From contig NZ_JAEKFT010000015.1 in assembly GCF_018524365.1 (NCBI RefSeq), forward strand, positions 1-64,000: a DNA stretch of 64,000 bases, in the 5' to 3' direction. The stretch is from Denitromonas iodatirespirans (GTDB lineage: Bacteria > Pseudomonadota > Gammaproteobacteria > Burkholderiales > Rhodocyclaceae). The translations under genes and the position numbers were made by a program. The notes beneath the pieces were generated by a model. The model saw nothing but the letters and a program-made list of their open reading frames with translations, was not told the origin of the DNA and made no database searches. Position 1 is the first letter of the stretch; each line of letters opens with the position of its first letter. Positions 3,536 through 40,048 of the stretch are shown piece by piece.

Positions 3536-4468
3536 TCAGACGACCGCTTCTTCCTTCGTCTTCTTGGGTTGGATGAACTGCTCGCGAGACACGCCCAGCC
3601 ACATCACCAGCGGGCTGGCGACCAGCACCGAGGAGTAGATGCCGAAGCAGATGCCGATGGTCAGCGCCAGGGCGAAGTAGTACAGCGTTTCGCCGCCGAA
3701 GAGCAGCATCGACAGCACCATCACCTGGGTACTGCCGTGGGTGATGACGGTACGCGAGATGGTGCTGGTGATGGCATGGTTGAGCACGTCGGGGGTGCTC
3801 ATGGCGCGCTTTTTCTTGAAGGTTTCGCGCACGCGGTCGAAGACCACCACCGATTCGTTCACCGAGTAACCCAGCACGGCCAGCACGGCGGCCAGCACGG
3901 CCAGCGAGAATTCCCACTGGAAGAAGGCGAAGAAGCCGAGGATGATGATCACGTCATGCAGGTTGGCGATGATCGCCGAGATGGCAAAGCGCCATTCGAA
4001 GCGCAGCGCCAAATAGATCATGATGCCAATCACCACCAGCAGCAGTGCCATGCCGCCGTCGGCCGCCAGCTCCTTACCCACCTGCGGGCCGACGAACTCG
4101 ACCCGGCGCAGCTCGCCTTTCGGGCCGTCGATCTTGGCCAGCATCTCGGTCACCTGAGCGGAGACCCGGTTGCTGTCCAGGCCGTCGCGGTTGGGTAGGC
4201 GGATGAGGATGTCGCGGGCGCTGCCGAAGTTCTGCACCTGGGCATCGGGGTAGCCGCCTTCGCCGAGCGCGTCGCGGATCAGTTGCACCTGCGGCGCTTC
4301 GGCGTAGTTCAGCTCCACCAGCGTGCCGCCGGTGAACTCGACGCTGAGGTTGAGCCCGCGGGTGAGCAGAAACAGCACCGCCAGCACGAAGGTGACCAAC
4401 GAGATGATGTTGAACACCAGCGCGTGCTTCATGAACGGGATGTCGTTCTTGATGCGGAAGAATTCCAT
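3536..4468 (-). CDS. secF: Protein translocase subunit SecF
   Basis: SecF works with SecD in the inner membrane, using the proton motive force to complete SecYEG-driven export. The 310-residue length fits the family. The first membrane helix is followed by GLNLSVEFTGGTLVEL, the conserved start of the periplasmic P1-like domain, and five more membrane helices follow, including the VVIGIMIYLALRFEWRF block and SVNESVVVFDRVRET, the SecF counterpart of the SecD helix 4 signature. The gene lies downstream of secD but is separated from it by an unrelated four-helix-bundle gene, which breaks the usual direct secD-secF junction. Confidence 0.97.
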   Translation of the reverse strand: MEFFRIKNDIPFMKHALVFNIISLVTFVLAVLFLLTRGLNLSVEFTGGTLVELNYAEAPQVQLIRDALGEGGYPDAQVQNFGSARDILIRLPNRDGLDSNRVSAQVTEMLAKIDGPKGELRRVEFVGPQVGKELAADGGMALLLVVIGIMIYLALRFEWRFAISAIIANLHDVIIILGFFAFFQWEFSLAVLAAVLAVLGYSVNESVVVFDRVRETFKKKRAMSTPDVLNHAITSTISRTVITHGSTQVMVLSMLLFGGETLYYFALALTIGICFGIYSSVLVASPLVMWLGVSREQFIQPKKTKEEAVV

Positions 4469-4489
4469 TGTTCAGTGACTCGTAATGGG

Positions 4490-4867
4490 TTATTGGGGAT
4501 TGGTCTCGTGCCCGGCGCGAACGCTGGACACGAGCCCGTTGATGAGGCGAAAGACCCGGTCGACCTGATCTTCAATGGCTTGGGTATCTGCCGTAAATCC
4601 AAGATCGCGGGCGAGGGTGATCTGGGTGTCGAGTTCGCTCAGAGAGCCGCGCGAGACCGTCAGAAAGTGGGCAAACTCCTTTTTGCTGCCGCGAGCGGCC
4701 CCTTCTGCGATATTCGACGGGATGGAAACCGCGGCCCGTTTCATCTGGGCGCACAGTGCAAAACGCTCGTCGGCGGGAAAGCCGGCGGTCAGCGCGTAGG
4801 TCAGCTGTGCCAATTTCATGCTTTCCTGCCAAGCAACGAGGCGGCGATGCGGTCGCTCATTTGGCAC
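4490..4867 (-). CDS. Four-helix-bundle protein (S23/IVS family)
   Basis: A 125-residue protein of the four-helix-bundle family first known from intervening sequences in 23S rRNA genes. Diagnostic blocks are LVAWQESMKLAQLTY near the N terminus, QMKRAAVSIPSNIAEGAAR in the middle, and SRGSLSELDTQI followed by a C-terminal helix. The start was set at GTG (4867) because GGAGG (4876-4880) sits eight bases upstream; a TTG at 4882 would overlap that site. The gene lies between secD and secF on the same strand with 37 and 21 bases on either side. The biochemical role of the family is not established; homologues often appear in mobile or accessory contexts. Its placement inside the sec operon suggests an insertion that kept cotranscription. 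Confidence 0.85.
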   Translation of the reverse strand: MPNERPHRRLVAWQESMKLAQLTYALTAGFPADERFALCAQMKRAAVSIPSNIAEGAARGSKKEFAHFLTVSRGSLSELDTQITLARDLGFTADTQAIEDQVDRVFRLINGLVSSVRAGHETNPQ

Positions 4868-34589: not shown

Positions 34590-34985
34590 ATGAAACGTTG
34601 GCAATGGGGCCTCGGCGCGCTATGCCTGGGCCTGTTGTTCGGGGGTGGGGCGGCGACGGCCGCGGTGCCGCGGGTGGACCTGGGCCTGGCGCAAAGCCTG
34701 TCGATGTGTGACGGCAAGGCCACCTACACATACGTGATCACCTGGAAGGCGCGCGGCTCGGGCGGCCGGTACCAGATCAATACCGGCAACCAGTGCCGGC
34801 TGGCGGGCCAGGTGTGCGGCATCAGCAGCAAGACCTGCTACGCCCAGTGCGGTGCCAGCGGCGATTGTCGCGCCGAGGTGGCGGGCTGTCTGATCGGCCG
34901 CGGCTCGCCGTGGATCCAGGCCTACGGGATGGACGGCTCGGGCTATCAGCGCATCTCCGCGCCGGCCCCGGGGCGCTGTCTGTGA
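34590..34985 (+). CDS. Small Cys-rich secreted protein, function unknown
   Basis: A 131-residue precursor with a clear signal peptide (WGLGALCLGLLFGGGAATAA). The mature part of about 107 residues has eight cysteines, in SMCDG, NQCRL, QVCGI, KTCYAQCG, GDCRA, AGCLI and the C-terminal GRCL, enough for four disulfides. A GGAG ribosome binding site (ATGAGGAGAGCGAG) precedes the ATG. I do not recognise the family. It lies alone between the flavin reductase and the convergent cupin gene. Confidence 0.75.
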   Translation: MKRWQWGLGALCLGLLFGGGAATAAVPRVDLGLAQSLSMCDGKATYTYVITWKARGSGGRYQINTGNQCRLAGQVCGISSKTCYAQCGASGDCRAEVAGCLIGRGSPWIQAYGMDGSGYQRISAPAPGRCL

Positions 34986-35026: not shown

Positions 35027-35476
35027 CTACTGGCCGGCTTGGTTCCCTTGCTGGGCGAACAGGCCGGCGACATCCGCCACGCTGAGCGTGGCGACGGTGT
35101 CGCCGTTCGCATCGAGCACATCGAAGAGCACGCCGTTGGCGCTGCCGCGGGTGCTGTAGAGCACCAACGCGCCGTCGGGGCCGCCGCCTTCGCTGTGCGG
35201 CTCGGCGTCGGCGGCGGTGCGGGTGTGCCGGCCCACCGGGCGGGTGTCGGTCAGCGTGCCGTCGGGGGCATAGAGGCGGTGTTCGCCCGCGAGCACCAGG
35301 GTGTGGGTTTCCGAGCGGTGGCGGTGCAGGAAGATCGGCGCGTCCGAGTCGTAGCGGATGAGGAAGTCGGTGATCTGGCGCGCTTCGTCGACGGCCAGCA
35401 CGTTGTAGTGGAAGTGCGGAAAGTCGCCGAGGCGGTGCCAGGCGAAGGCGGCGTCCAGGGGGCTGAGCGTGGTCAT
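35027..35476 (-). CDS. Cupin-like protein, last gene of the Sel1/ExbB-like operon
   Basis: A 149-residue soluble protein without a signal peptide. The core resembles a ChrR/cupin fold: FLHRHRSETHTLVLAGEHRLY supplies three histidines and a glutamate that could bind a metal, followed by PVGRHTRTA. The C-terminal part (VLFDVLDANGDTVATLSVADVAGLF) is not recognised. It starts 12 bases after the second Sel1 gene, so it is almost certainly cotranscribed with it. Enzyme activity or small-molecule sensing are both possible. Confidence 0.7.
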   Translation of the reverse strand: MTTLSPLDAAFAWHRLGDFPHFHYNVLAVDEARQITDFLIRYDSDAPIFLHRHRSETHTLVLAGEHRLYAPDGTLTDTRPVGRHTRTAADAEPHSEGGGPDGALVLYSTRGSANGVLFDVLDANGDTVATLSVADVAGLFAQQGNQAGQ

Positions 35477-35488
35477 GACGGTCTCCGG

Positions 35489-36346
35489 TCACGGGTGGTC
35501 GGTGAGGGGTGTCCAGGCGGGGTCGGCATAGACGCTGCCGTCCTCGCGGCGCCAGGCGTAGTGCACGCCATGGGCGAGAAAGTCGCGCGCGTCGCGGTCG
35601 CCGGCTGATGCGGCGGCCTTGAACAGGCGCAGGGCGGCCTCGCGATCCGGCGCGGTGCCGACACCGAAATACAGCGCGGTGGCGTACTGGACGCGGGCGC
35701 CCTGGCTGTAGCCCGGGGTGTGGCTGGCTTCGGCCTGGCGCAGGTAGTCGGTCATGCGCTCGGGCCGACGCGGCACGCCGAGGCCGCTTTCGAAGAACTG
35801 CGCCAGCCGCACCAGGCCGCCGGCATGCCTTTCGCGGACGCAGGCGGCGAGGATCACCAGCGCCGACTCGTAGTCGCCGCATTTTTCCAGCTCGAACAAT
35901 GCCGACGAGAAATGGCCGGTGCCGAATTGGCAGCTGGCCTTGAGGGTGTAGACGTCGGTGTCCGGCGCGCCGGCGGCGGTTTCCGGCCCCCGGCACAGGT
36001 GGTTGGGGCGCGGCAGGTGCGGCGCACGGTCGGCAACCTGGCCCATCCAGCGCTCGGCCGCGGCGCGCTGGCGCGCCTGGGGGGCGGGGAGGTGCCAGTC
36101 CAGGCGGGTGCCGCCGGTGGTTTCGTCCCAATCCACGCTGACCTCGACCGTGCCGGCCTCGGGCAGCTGGAGACGGCCTTCGAAGCGGTCGAGGTCGAGT
36201 TGTGCGTGCTCGCGCAGGCCGTCGCTATCGAGCTGGTCGAGCAGGGCACGCCATGCGCGTTCGGGGGCGACGGCGATCGGCACGGTGTCGGCGGCGGCGG
36301 GGGCGGCCAGCAGGGCGGTCAAGAGCAGGGCAGGGAGACGTGTCAT
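35489..36346 (-). CDS. Exported Sel1-repeat protein (second of the operon)
   Basis: A 285-residue protein with signal peptide (RLPALLLTALLAAPAAADT). The first half after the signal (PIAVAPERAWRALLDQLDSD, EVSVDWDETTGGTRLDWHL) looks like a beta-rich domain of unknown type. The second half holds Sel1-like repeats, for example GGLVRLAQFFESGLGVPRR and YATALYFGVGTAPDREAALR. Such repeats bind partner proteins. Its ATG overlaps the DUF2149 stop by four bases, so expression is coupled to the channel genes. The location is probably periplasmic. Confidence 0.78.
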   Translation of the reverse strand: MTRLPALLLTALLAAPAAADTVPIAVAPERAWRALLDQLDSDGLREHAQLDLDRFEGRLQLPEAGTVEVSVDWDETTGGTRLDWHLPAPQARQRAAAERWMGQVADRAPHLPRPNHLCRGPETAAGAPDTDVYTLKASCQFGTGHFSSALFELEKCGDYESALVILAACVRERHAGGLVRLAQFFESGLGVPRRPERMTDYLRQAEASHTPGYSQGARVQYATALYFGVGTAPDREAALRLFKAAASAGDRDARDFLAHGVHYAWRREDGSVYADPAWTPLTDHP

Positions 36347-36684
36347 CGGTGGACCTCCGGGGTGGGTGGGACGGTTTCGGGGACGTACACCATCGAACCG
36401 TCGGGCAGGCGGTAGGCGATGCCGGCGCGCACGCCCTGGCCGATGCCGGCGGTGCCGTCGGCGCGGTAGCGTTCGATGCGCTCGCCGTCCTTGACCACCA
36501 GTTCCATGTCGGCGGTGCCGGGGTTGCGGATCAGCGTCAGCGCCTCGGCGCCGTAAGGCGACAGCGGGCTGTTGGCGATGGCCAGCAGCAGGGCGGCGAT
36601 GAGCACCAGGAACACGTCGATCAGATTGACTACCGACAGGATCGGGTCTTCGTCATGCGCGTCGTCGCGCAGCGGGGGGCGCAT
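36343..36684 (-). CDS. DUF2149 protein, ExbD/TolR-like
   Basis: A 113-residue protein with one N-terminal membrane helix, VVNLIDVFLVLIAALLLAIA. The IDVxLVL pattern, with Asp23 at the start of the helix, is the same as the proton-carrying helix of ExbD, TolR and MotB. The rest, about 75 residues, would be periplasmic. The family resembles DUF2149, which is usually found next to a MotA/TolQ/ExbB homologue, as here: its ATG overlaps the end of the ExbB-like gene by one base. It most likely forms the stator partner of that channel. Confidence 0.8.
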   Translation of the reverse strand: MRPPLRDDAHDEDPILSVVNLIDVFLVLIAALLLAIANSPLSPYGAEALTLIRNPGTADMELVVKDGERIERYRADGTAGIGQGVRAGIAYRLPDGSMVYVPETVPPTPEVHR

Positions 36685-37172
36685 CAGGCCATCTCCGCGC
36701 GCTGTGCGGCAATGGCGTCAAGATCGCGCACATACCAGCGCCGCCGCCAGGTGAGCACGGTGTAGGTGATCGAGGCGGCGATCAGCGCCAGGATGACCGC
36801 CGAGAAGGCCACCGCCAGCGCCTGCGAGACATCGGCCAGCTGCCCGTCGCCGAGCGCGCGCAGCGCTGGCCCCATCGGAATCATGGTGGCGACCAGGCCG
36901 AGCATGGGGGCGATGCGGGTGGCGAGGCGGGCCAGCTCCAGGCGCTCGTGGGCGATGCGTTCGAGCGTGGCGGGGTCGAGTTCGGGGCGGGCCCGGGCCA
37001 GCGCCAGCAACTCGAAACCCGCGGCGTGGCTGCCGCGGCGTTGGCGGGCTTGCCAGGCCAGGGCGCCGAGCGCCGCGAAGGCGTAGGCGAACAGTGCGGC
37101 GATGGCGATCAGCACCGGCGCCAGGAACAACTGGCCCAGGCTGTACATGGCGGTATCGAGGGCGGCGACCAT
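36684..37172 (-). CDS. MotA/TolQ/ExbB-family proton channel protein
   Basis: A 162-residue membrane protein with an N-terminal helix (LFLAPVLIAIAALFAYAFAALGALAW), a cytoplasmic loop, and two closing helices: RIAPMLGLVATMIPMGPALRAL, the counterpart of the TolQ/ExbB helix with the APxLGLxGT motif, and ALAVAFSAVILALIAASITYTVL. The ATG at 37172 is preferred as it follows AGGGGGCCTGCTGAC; the frame runs 15 codons further upstream. It begins one base after the first Sel1 gene stops. With the DUF2149 protein it should form a proton-driven energy-transducing unit; no TonB or TolA gene is adjacent. Confidence 0.85.
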   Translation of the reverse strand: MVAALDTAMYSLGQLFLAPVLIAIAALFAYAFAALGALAWQARQRRGSHAAGFELLALARARPELDPATLERIAHERLELARLATRIAPMLGLVATMIPMGPALRALGDGQLADVSQALAVAFSAVILALIAASITYTVLTWRRRWYVRDLDAIAAQRAEMA

Positions 37173-37173
37173 G

Positions 37174-37893
37174 TCAGCAGGCCCCCTGCCGTTCGCCGCG
37201 GGCGCGGGCAGCGGCACCCGCGGCGAGCAGCGCCGTCAGAACGGCGATCAGGCCGAGGGCCGGCGTGGGGGCGGGTGCAGAGGCCGGGGTGACGGGCGCC
37301 AGCCGTGGCCCGACGCTGTCGCGGGCGGCGCGCTGGGCGGCGACGGATCGGCCGCGCTGGTCGCGGTCGGCGGTGTGGGTGCCGCTGTCGAGAAAGGCCT
37401 GGGCGTCGGCGTCGCCCTCGGCGGCCGCCTCGCGAAACCAGCGCTCGGCCGCGGCCTCGTCGCGTTCGACACCGCGCCCCAGGTACAGGGCCGTGGCGTA
37501 GTGCAGCTTGCCGAGCGTGGCGTACTCGCGGTCGTCGCTGTGCGCGGCGCGGCGCATCAGATCGGTGGCCGCGGCGCTGTCCTGCGCGATGCCGGTGCCG
37601 TCTTCGAGCAGCAGCGCTTTCCAGATCATGGCGCCGACATAGCCGGCGGCGATGCAGCGGTCGAAGATGGCGTGGGCGGTGGCGTGATCGCCGCATTTCT
37701 CGGCCCAGTAGCCGTAGGCGCACATGGTCGAGCTGGGCGCCTGGCGGGCCCAGTGGGCGATCGACAGATCACTCTGGGCGGCGTCCGGCGCGCCGCCGCA
37801 GTGGGTGGGCGGGATTAGCGCCAGGGCCGGCGTGGCGGCACCGAAGGCGAGGGCTGCGATGAGCGTGTACAGCGGGCGAAAGCGGCGGGGCAT
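37174..37893 (-). CDS. Exported Sel1-repeat protein with C-terminal membrane tail
   Basis: A 239-residue protein with signal peptide (LYTLIAALAFGAATPALA), Sel1-like repeats (AIFDRCIAAGYVGAMIWKAL, YATALYLGRGVERDEAAAER) and a C-terminal segment made of a proline-rich linker (PASAPAPTPA), a hydrophobic stretch (ALGLIAVLTALLAAGAAA) and a basic end (RARGERQGAC). That order recalls protein-sorting tails. The ATG at 37893 was chosen to start at the signal peptide; the open frame runs 35 codons upstream without one. It is the first gene of the coupled five-gene operon, 144 bases downstream of the response regulator. Confidence 0.75.
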   Translation of the reverse strand: MPRRFRPLYTLIAALAFGAATPALALIPPTHCGGAPDAAQSDLSIAHWARQAPSSTMCAYGYWAEKCGDHATAHAIFDRCIAAGYVGAMIWKALLLEDGTGIAQDSAAATDLMRRAAHSDDREYATLGKLHYATALYLGRGVERDEAAAERWFREAAAEGDADAQAFLDSGTHTADRDQRGRSVAAQRAARDSVGPRLAPVTPASAPAPTPALGLIAVLTALLAAGAAARARGERQGAC

Positions 37894-38037: not shown

Positions 38038-38679
38038 TCAGCTACCGTCGAGGCCGTGCCGGGCGGCGATGCGCGCCAGCTCGATGTCGTTGCGGGCGCC
38101 GAGCTTGCGCTTGATCTGGTAGTGGCTGTTCTGCACCGTTTTTGCGCTGATGTGCAGCCGCACGCCGATGTCGGCATGGCTGGCGCCATCGAGCAGCTGG
38201 CGCAGGATCTCGAACTCACGCGGCGACAGCGTGTGCAGCGGGTCGTCGGCCTGGTCGAGCAGGGCCATGGCCAGTTCGGGGGCGATGTCGGGGCTCAGCG
38301 CGCGCTCGCCCGCCGCCACGCGATACACCGCCTGCACCAGCACCGCCGGTTCGCTGCTCTTGGTGATATAGCCGAGCGCACCGGCCTTGAGCGCCTGGGC
38401 GGCGAACAGCGCTTCGCGATGCATGCTGAAGGCCAGGATGCGGGCGCTCGGCGCGCGCTGGCGCAGCCGGCCGATCAGCTCCACTCCGCCCATGTCCGGC
38501 AATGCCAAGTCGAGCACGATCACGTCGGGGGGGTGCGTGCGCAAGGCGGCCAGGGCCTCGGCGGCGCTGGCCGCTTCGGCGACGATGCTCAGATCGCCGC
38601 GCCGCTCCAGCAGGCGGCGGTAGCCCTCGCGCACCACGGCATGGTCATCGACCAGCAACAGTCGGAGGCTCATCGGCAC
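38038..38679 (-). CDS. NarL/FixJ-family response regulator
   Basis: A 213-residue regulator. The receiver domain has LLLVDDHAVVREGYRRLLE, the phospho-acceptor aspartate in PDVIVLDLALPDMGG (about residue 55) and the conserved lysine in GYITKSSEP. A LuxR-type helix-turn-helix lies at the C terminus (LSPREFEILRQLLDGASHADIGVRLHISAKTVQ in two blocks). It overlaps the upstream kinase gene by 35 bases, so the pair is translationally linked. It is the nearest regulator to the Sel1/ExbB-like operon downstream. Confidence 0.95.
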   Translation of the reverse strand: MPMSLRLLLVDDHAVVREGYRRLLERRGDLSIVAEAASAAEALAALRTHPPDVIVLDLALPDMGGVELIGRLRQRAPSARILAFSMHREALFAAQALKAGALGYITKSSEPAVLVQAVYRVAAGERALSPDIAPELAMALLDQADDPLHTLSPREFEILRQLLDGASHADIGVRLHISAKTVQNSHYQIKRKLGARNDIELARIAARHGLDGS

Positions 38680-40048
38680 TCTCCCCGCAGATCATGGCCG
38701 CCGCCGGAAAACGGGCGACCAGCCGCATGCCCCGCGCCGGGCGGGGCGTCAGCGAAAATTCACCGCCGAGCGCCTCGACCCGCTCGGTCATGCCGAGCAC
38801 GCCGAGCCCGCTGCCGGCGGTGTCGTGCGCCGTGCCGGTGCCGTCGTCCTCGAGCGTGAGCACGATGCCTTGCCCACCGCCGACGATGCTCAGGTGGACA
38901 TGCGCGGGCGCGCCGTGGCGCAGGGCGTTGGCCAGGCCCTCCTGAGCGATGCGGTAGAGGCTGACGGTGAGCGCATCGGGCAGCGTGTCGAGATCGTCGG
39001 CCATCGTCAGTCGGATGTCGCAGCCCGGTTGGTGGCGGAGGGCGGTGTCGACCAGCTGGGCCAGACTGGCGCGCAAGCCGAAGGCCTCGAGCCCGGCCGG
39101 TCGCAGCTGGTGCAGGATGCGCTGCAGGTTGTCCATCATCCCGGCCGCCGTGCGGGCGATGGCGTCGATGGCCGCCCGGCGGGCCGGTGCCGGCGCATCG
39201 GCGGCACAGGCGGCCTCGGCGCGAATCGACGCCAGCGACTGGCCGAACTCGTCATGCAGCTCGCGTGCCAGCCGGCGGCGCTCCTGTTCGCGCACCGACA
39301 GCAGGCGCCGGGCCAGCTGGCGCTGGCGGCGGTCGGTGTGCTGCAGGCGGTCGGCCAGGTGGTCGAAACCTTCGGCGATGCGGCGCAGTTCGACCAGCGC
39401 CGGGCGCGGCATGCGTGCCGCCAGATCGCCGCTTTCGAGCTGTCGCAGGGTGTCGAGGATGCGTTCGGTCGGGCGCAGGGCGCGGCGCACCGGCAGGTAG
39501 ATCAACAGGTTGAGCAGCAGCACGCCGGCGGCGATGGCCAGCACCAGGCGCATCTGCTGCCACACTGCGGCGGCTTCGGCGTCCAGGTCGGGGGTGACCA
39601 CCACGTCGCCGACGGTGATGCCGGGGTACTGGCGGATGCGGCCGCTGTAGCGCGCGCTCGCGCCGAGGCGCCAGCCCAGCAGCGCGCGCACCGGGGCGGG
39701 GGCCGCGGCGGTGGTGTCGGAGAAACAGCGCCGGCGCGATTGCCCGGTATGGAAGGTGTTGACCTCGATGCACAGCTTGAGCAGCTGGCCGAGTTCGTCG
39801 GTGAGGGCGAGCTGCAAGGCGTCGAGGCTGCGGTCGAAGCCGTCGCGCGGGGTGTCGAGCTCGCGGCCGATCAGCTGCTCGACGGTCGGGCCGCTGTGGA
39901 CCACATGCTGGCCGATGCGCTGCGCCGCCTGTTCGACAACGGCCGCCGCGGCCAGCGCGCCGATCAGGCCGGCGAACAGGGTGACCCGCAGGATCAGGTG
40001 GCGCTTGAGGTCGAAGCCCGGCGTGGGCGGAGCGTCGGCAGACGTCAT
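38645..40048 (-). CDS. Membrane sensor histidine kinase, HisKA_3 (NarX-like) type
   Basis: A 467-residue kinase with two membrane helices (about 18-40 and 165-190) flanking a periplasmic sensor domain of about 120 residues with two cysteines (KLCIEVN and RRRCFSD). A HAMP region (LRPTERILDTLRQLESGDL) follows, then the dimerisation and phosphorylation block REQERRRLARELHDEFGQSL with the active histidine, and HATPase boxes (GLANALRHG, GSGLGVLGMTERVEALGG). The cognate regulator overlaps its end. The signal is unknown; the thioredoxin and Fe-S genes upstream hint at a redox theme. Confidence 0.94.
   Translation of the reverse strand: MTSADAPPTPGFDLKRHLILRVTLFAGLIGALAAAAVVEQAAQRIGQHVVHSGPTVEQLIGRELDTPRDGFDRSLDALQLALTDELGQLLKLCIEVNTFHTGQSRRRCFSDTTAAAPAPVRALLGWRLGASARYSGRIRQYPGITVGDVVVTPDLDAEAAAVWQQMRLVLAIAAGVLLLNLLIYLPVRRALRPTERILDTLRQLESGDLAARMPRPALVELRRIAEGFDHLADRLQHTDRRQRQLARRLLSVREQERRRLARELHDEFGQSLASIRAEAACAADAPAPARRAAIDAIARTAAGMMDNLQRILHQLRPAGLEAFGLRASLAQLVDTALRHQPGCDIRLTMADDLDTLPDALTVSLYRIAQEGLANALRHGAPAHVHLSIVGGGQGIVLTLEDDGTGTAHDTAGSGLGVLGMTERVEALGGEFSLTPRPARGMRLVARFPAAAMICGESADEPPTVAGR

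Follow-up and report, generated by a model that had tools for sequence, protein, structure and literature searches.

A Sel1-repeat protein in the place of CobN at an ExbB-DUF2149 gene pair of Denitromonas iodatirespirans and its relatives

The DNA analysed here, called the window, comprises 64,000 nucleotides from the 5.18 Mb genome of Denitromonas iodatirespirans (contig NZ_JAEKFT010000015.1, positions 1 to 64,000). It contains a compact row of five minus-strand genes encoding a Sel1-repeat protein (S1), an ExbB-like channel subunit (E), a DUF2149 protein (D), a second Sel1-like protein (S2) and a small cupin-like protein (C) (Table 1). S1 and E are separated by 1 base, E and D overlap by 1 base, D and S2 overlap by 4 bases, and 12 bases lie between S2 and C. 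An original prediction from the sequence alone described these genes as an operon, plausibly for a proton-powered envelope machine. The gene row is present as described, no gap being longer than 12 bases, but the prediction had overlooked a histidine kinase gene and a response regulator gene that lie upstream of S1 on this strand at a distance of 144 bases. Comparisons with related genomes suggest that S1-E-D is a conserved variant of a known stator type, ExbB-DUF2149, with a new partner.

Table 1. Genes of the S1-E-D region, in window coordinates
Feature	Position	Strand	Basis
S1, Sel1-repeat protein, 239 aa, probably exported	37174..37893	minus	Pfam Sel1, alignments, tail analyses
E, ExbB/MotA-family channel subunit, 162 aa	36684..37172	minus	Pfam MotA_ExbB; tree with D
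D, DUF2149 protein of 113 aa with a single membrane helix (carrying Asp23) and a short periplasmic part	36343..36684	minus	Pfam DUF2149
S2, Sel1-like, 285 aa, probably exported, accessory	35489..36346	minus	Sel1 match below cut-off, homology to S1
C, small cupin-like protein, 149 aa, accessory	35027..35476	minus	Cupin_7 match below cut-off
NarL/LuxR-type response regulator, conserved with S1	38038..38679	minus	Pfam; neighbours in relatives
HAMP-domain histidine kinase, conserved alongside S1	38645..40048	minus	Pfam; neighbours in relatives

Three of the five proteins score above their Pfam cut-offs: S1 for Sel1 (PF08238, 31.5 bits against 30.7), E for MotA_ExbB (PF01618, 30.5 against 22.9) and D for DUF2149 (PF09919, 86.1 against 27.1). 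The motifs APMLGL and IDVFLVL and residue Asp23 of D, all named in the prediction, are present in the sequence, and Asp23 is invariant in eight-row alignments. The description of D as DUF2149/ExbD-like holds for the first family, which is its sole Pfam match, but not for the second (PF02472), to which it has no match at E<=1. S2 and C, named as a Sel1 protein and a cupin, both fall below their cut-offs (Sel1, 25.6 bits against 30.7; Cupin_7, 17.5 against 27); a homologue of C from genus g37, at locus L145, scores 27.1 bits against the Cupin_7 cut-off of 27. S2 has a small alpha-beta N-terminal domain and a Sel1-like region homologous to S1, and is about 32-34% identical to the S1 proteins of relatives. 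Its AlphaFold model, built on 4 sequences, is of low confidence (mean pLDDT 54), and a fold search of the PDB with this model gave Sel1-type proteins as the best matches, none at E<=0.001, and unrelated chains lower down. The model of D, built on 8 sequences, consists of one helix and five strands and is likewise of low confidence (mean pLDDT 61). S1 is built up by a hydrophobic N-terminus, four cysteines conserved in the genus alignment, the Sel1 region, a linker rich in proline and alanine, a degenerate G-P-R-L box, a C-terminal membrane helix and a basic tail. By hydropathy its N-terminus is signal-like and its C-terminus holds a hydrophobic helix; the protein is probably exported.

The arrangement of the gene set is non-random because the same order recurs in four of the nine other genomes of the genus sample, where the sequence kinase-regulator-S1-E-D-S2-C is kept and the products of the five genes are 82-93% identical to those of the window. 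Two further genomes have the kinase, the regulator, S1, E and D, in one case with two intervening genes, and lack S2 and C; in another, S1 and E-D lie at the ends of two contigs (L166 and L038), and the remaining two have no match. The response regulator is 78-82% identical beside S1 in six genus relatives, and it also adjoins S1 in other genera. The searches for S1 in the family, order and class samples scored at most 7-9 first-look candidates per genome in the rows listed. S1 was matched at E<=1e-12 in 34 of the 297 genomes of the family sample, representing 10 of its 68 genera. Outside the family, the strongest match in the order sample (399 genomes) was in genome G129 (1.5e-67), followed by G450 (5.8e-16), where no E-D was found near the S1 match. 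In the class sample (321 genomes), G704 was the only other genome with a match at E<=1e-15, and its S1 has no adjacent E-D.

Reading of the neighbourhoods gave 28 loci with S1-E-D in that order in eight genera (7 in g1, 2 in g2, 4 in g6, 1 in g32, 8 in g37, 1 in g45, 4 in g50 and 1 in G129). Co-occurrence of DUF2149, an ExbB-like protein and a Sel1 protein beyond the strain, on which the prediction depended, is thus found in several genera. It does not extend to all five genes. S2 accompanies S1-E-D in 5 and the cupin gene, which also occurs in genus g37, in 13 of the 28 loci, counts made with a home-made gene caller that was wrong for some genes (in L036, L037 and L040, S2 and cupin were recovered by tblastn). 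The conserved core is S1-E-D, with kinase and regulator close by in most loci; S1 alone is tied to the stator, and S2 and the cupin are accessory. The view of both Sel1 proteins as stand-ins for a force-transmitting partner therefore applies to membrane-anchored S1 but not to S2.

DUF2149 itself is more widespread. It was found in 85 of the 297 family genomes, in 25 of 121 genomes in a sample of relatives and in 17 of 398 in a phylum sample, the window genome being counted in both of the latter. The neighbourhoods read cover part of the DUF2149 places listed in the family sample. Among 44 other DUF2149 loci read, 43 have a gene for a CobN-like chelatase, 25 have a match to a TonB-dependent receptor (from a single receptor query) and none has S1. 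The locus lacking CobN (L042) has a broken E gene and a full TonB-ExbB-ExbD set alongside. D was also found in nine plasmid-borne records; of six read, five have CobN and the sixth (L235) is a reduced region without an ExbB or CobN match. Pairs of the E-D type are reported in the hmuYRSTUV operon (excerpts of PMC10434189) and in PA1922-1925 (excerpts of PMC9431628 and PMC4542158). The operon was called undescribed in the prediction, but its channel pair is of a known type, that of CobN/HmuS operons, and only the partner is new: S1 stands where CobN stands in other ExbB-DUF2149 loci. At the window the adjacent E-D pair is present and the operon has no CobN-like gene. The genome's single CobN match lies on another contig (C91), away from E-D, and has neither C-terminal helix nor tail; supply of CobN in trans as the default is unlikely since this one CobN lacks the tail.

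No partner of another kind came to light. Among nine window proteins scanned with Pfam there was no TonB, TonB-dependent receptor, TolA, TolB, Pal or peptidoglycan-binding OmpA domain, in agreement with the predicted stator-like pair lacking a TonB, TolA or MotB partner. Elsewhere in the genome, TonB_C matches lie on contig C2 (two above the cut-off) and C14 (one below it), and five ExbD matches are also on other contigs.

The predicted C-terminal anchor of S1 goes with the presence of E-D. A hydrophobic helix at the C-terminus is present in all 28 S1 proteins that have E-D no more than four genes away (best 19-residue mean, 1.49-2.65) and in none of six intact S1 proteins without E-D (0.90 or less); three more S1 proteins without E-D (L142, L168 and L212) also lack it, giving 0 of 9. 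L168 lies near a contig start, and E-D may lie past the edge. The count excludes L166, where S1 is cut by the contig end, L167, which is of the S2 type, and the weaker Sel1 proteins without E-D in L108-L112, which fall below its 80-bit limit. S1 proteins without E-D end right after the Sel1 region, and one of the nine, that of genome G464, has the common S1 form in other respects. A Sel1 region is also found behind an N-terminal anchor: two of the nine, in G129 and G605 (L106 7836-8663 and L168 about 250-900, both on the minus strand), have an N-terminal hydrophobic helix with an S-x-x-x-H pattern, a proline-rich linker and then the Sel1 region, and no E-D match was found near either. The S-x-x-x-H helix pattern is typical of TonB, and the architecture looks like that of a TonB-like protein with a Sel1 region as its C-terminal domain. 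Sel1 regions thus appear to be carried by anchors of either polarity.

S1 could instead have a regulatory role, acting in the periplasm on the neighbouring histidine kinase much as ExoR does, while E-D would do no more than tune it in response to proton-motive force; the set would then be a signalling device. The kinase ExoS is inhibited by ExoR, a Sel1 protein of the periplasm that works with the two-component system ExoS/ChvI (excerpts of PMC4550343). Near S1, a kinase and a regulator are found at 20 of the 28 loci with S1-E-D and at five of the nine loci without E-D (L107, L142, L143, L150 and L154). Yet no such pair occurs within four genes in the other eight (L147, L149, L151, L155, L156, L158, L161 and L165), an objection softened by four of them (L149, L155, L158 and L165) lying near contig ends. 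Unlike ExoR, for which the excerpts mention no stator partner, S1 beside E-D is membrane-anchored. We consider this explanation unlikely.

The end of S1 resembles that of most CobN partners. Both have a proline-rich linker, a short G-x-x-L box, a C-terminal membrane helix and a basic tail; in S1 beside E-D the linker is rich in proline and alanine, and the box is G-Q-R-L-like in many. In the main class of CobN-like proteins, set apart from a divergent class by a split of our own, all 28 have a C-terminal helix preceded by a G-x-x-[LMV] match, and the same end was seen by eye in five more family CobN proteins (L214-L218) and in loci of the phylum sample. A plasmid-borne CobN/HmuS-type protein of Bacteroides finegoldii (L232 2553-6635, plus strand) ends in a G-M-V-L-K stretch followed by a hydrophobic helix and then a basic tail, and a plasmid-borne set from Aureibacter has a comparable pre-helix stretch without the glycine. 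A profile built from 35 CobN tails alone gave S1 tails as the 17 best non-CobN hits among 1032 predicted proteins (best E 1e-11). With a matrix of 28 CobN boxes, one of which (L045) was wrongly picked by the script, the 28 S1 linkers scored a median of 4.5 against -2.5 in 86 C-terminal-helix controls that include two class II CobN proteins (Mann-Whitney p 9e-11, overstated because the sequences are related), and 20 of the 28 linkers scored above their own shuffles at p<0.05.

Such a tail could be an ordinary C-terminal anchor or sorting signal, with E-D energising something else, for example an outer-membrane receptor. PEP-CTERM-like anchors do turn up among the weak hits of the CobN-tail profile, the receptor match in 25 of 44 CobN-type loci fits this explanation, and one S1-E-D locus (L155) adjoins a TonB-dependent receptor. 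In excerpts of the literature, HmuU/V is described as powering HmuR (PMC12583661) and PA1924 is proposed as possibly serving the receptor PA1922 (PMC4542158). Against this, the S1 anchor goes with E-D (28 of 28 against 0 of 9), CobN is a more constant neighbour than the receptor (43 against 25 of 44 loci), and neither receptor nor TonB is among the scanned window proteins. We regard this possibility as decidedly improbable.

The reading we prefer is that E and D are a proton-driven stator of the ExbB-DUF2149 type whose client has changed to S1 with the coupling tail kept, and this is probable on the comparisons above. A second, unrelated neighbour that carries this kind of tail at the same stator points to direct coupling, and we infer that S1 and E-D are coupled through this common C-terminal module. 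Proton flow via E and Asp23 of D would shift the anchor helix of S1 relative to E-D, the proline-rich linker with its G-x-x-L box would touch the periplasmic part of D, and the motion would pass to the Sel1 region, which may act on a periplasmic client. Kinase and regulator would probably control or read the system.

Several points weigh against this reading. In 8 of 28 cases, the window among them, the S1 linker fails to exceed its shuffles, and the reading is graded lower because of this. The window tail is weak (CobN profile E 1.0; matrix score -2.3, p 0.16): linker and helix are present, and the box is degenerate. L147 is absent from the CobN-profile matches listed. The common tail is short and compositionally biased (6-26 bits), the profile also draws the PEP-CTERM-like anchors, and the p-values are inflated as stated. 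The seven proteins of the divergent CobN class have no clear box, and that of L061 has no helix either. S1 homologues that lack E-D show the Sel1 part to be useful by itself, and the AlphaFold models are poor for both D and S2.

The history of the E-D pair is likewise of two sides. In a tree of 49 taxa, from which seven long-branch CobN rows (L045, L058, L061, L062, L063, L185 and L192) were left out, S1-type and CobN-type pairs are separated by one branch with a bootstrap of 100. With all 56 rows the S1-type pairs are not one rooted clade, which also counts against the preferred reading; there the long-branch CobN rows group with two S1 rows. Both trees leave out L038 (short E), four loci with no D called (L059, L060, L199 and L200) and seven with no usable E called (L042, L051, L188, L189, L190, L197 and L198). 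One partner switch, its direction unsettled, would be the simplest reading.

Gene context gives a lead to function in alcohol oxidation dependent on pyrroloquinoline quinone (PQQ), which the set might serve by cofactor or metal supply or by dehydrogenase maturation, S1 acting on that apparatus. PQQ alcohol dehydrogenase matches lie near S1 in 5 of 42 loci from four lineages (L105, L144, L155, L165 and L212) against 0 of 44 CobN-type loci, a comparison of unmatched loci with hand-assigned lineages, five duplicates among the 42 and no E-D in L212. In L212 (508-9882, G704), the dehydrogenase and models for a PQQ-system binding protein, a beta-propeller and an ATPase, over their cut-offs, surround S1b; six g37 loci have an aldehyde dehydrogenase and DUF779, and contig C191 of the window genome has homologues of these context genes with a regulator 48% identical to that of the window. 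However, no PQQ dehydrogenase was matched in window positions 20001-55000 or in the other 37 S1 loci, and this proposal is quite unlikely. The explanations considered here and the preferred one are not mutually exclusive.

Some neighbouring features deserve mention. Beside S1 in L165, near the PQQ dehydrogenase, is a second Sel1 protein (3752-4567, minus strand) with weak matches to MerG (E 1.3e-7) and MotX (9e-6), far under the cut-offs. A 131-aa protein with a hydrophobic N-terminus (window 34590-34985, plus strand) adjoins the operon and does so in the four genus relatives having S2 and C; Pfam and NCBIfam searches gave no match at E<=1. In genus g27, S2-S1b is not accompanied by E-D but is followed by a hydrophobic protein of 131 aa (L107 8442-8837 and L143 6830-7225, both plus strand); for the copy in L107, Pfam gave no match at E<=1. 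Apart from a distant tRNA-Leu, nothing was found when the window was scanned with Rfam (gathering thresholds) and for tRNA genes.

TonB-ExbB-ExbD systems consist of a channel, a one-helix subunit with an aspartate and an anchored partner with a proline-rich linker. The S1-E-D set is similar in having an ExbB-family channel, a one-helix Asp subunit and a partner with anchor helix, proline-rich linker and periplasmic domain. It differs in that D matches DUF2149 and not ExbD, and S1 has no match to the TonB C-terminal domain and is anchored at its C-terminus; its predicted topology is that of TonB with the chain reversed. With the CobN/HmuS operons (hmuYRSTUV and PA1922-PA1925) the set shares the two stator subunits in adjacent genes and a neighbour with proline-rich linker and C-terminal anchor, the G-x-x-L box being present in most CobN partners. 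In contrast, the neighbour at the window is a Sel1 protein, no receptor or HmuY was found in the operon, and kinase and regulator adjoin.

A Sel1 protein at an ion-driven stator has a parallel in Vibrio, where the periplasmic Sel1-motif protein MotX interacts with the PomA/PomB stator (excerpts of PMC9093738). MotX, however, belongs to the T ring and stabilises the stator, and S2 as a MotX was rejected, its match to the MotX model not being significant (E 0.12). According to excerpts of another study (PMC12004943), fewer than a quarter of genomes have Sel1 genes close to the receptor-oxygenase pair CciT/CciO. Among the papers listed by literature searches, titles and opening parts of abstracts held nothing on the S1-E-D gene set or on coupling through the tail. 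One HmuS paper, in its excerpts, assigns HmuU/V to the receptor HmuR and describes a structure solved after removal of the C-terminal helix of HmuS; in another, HmuV has no known family. The excerpts of the two HmuS papers note this helix and make no tie between it and HmuU/V.

A wider reading is possible, with slightly less for it than against it: ExbB-DUF2149 may be a client-swappable motor, in which proton-motive force directly drives a periplasmic protein that has the linker, the C-terminal anchor and the G-x-x-L box. HmuS and other CobN-like de-chelatases would in that case themselves be proton-driven, and S1 would be a second class of client. Direct coupling via the tail becomes testable by exchanging tails. 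If true, it would mean a further TonB-like way of transducing energy, with the chain reversed, and would show how a stator gains a new job.

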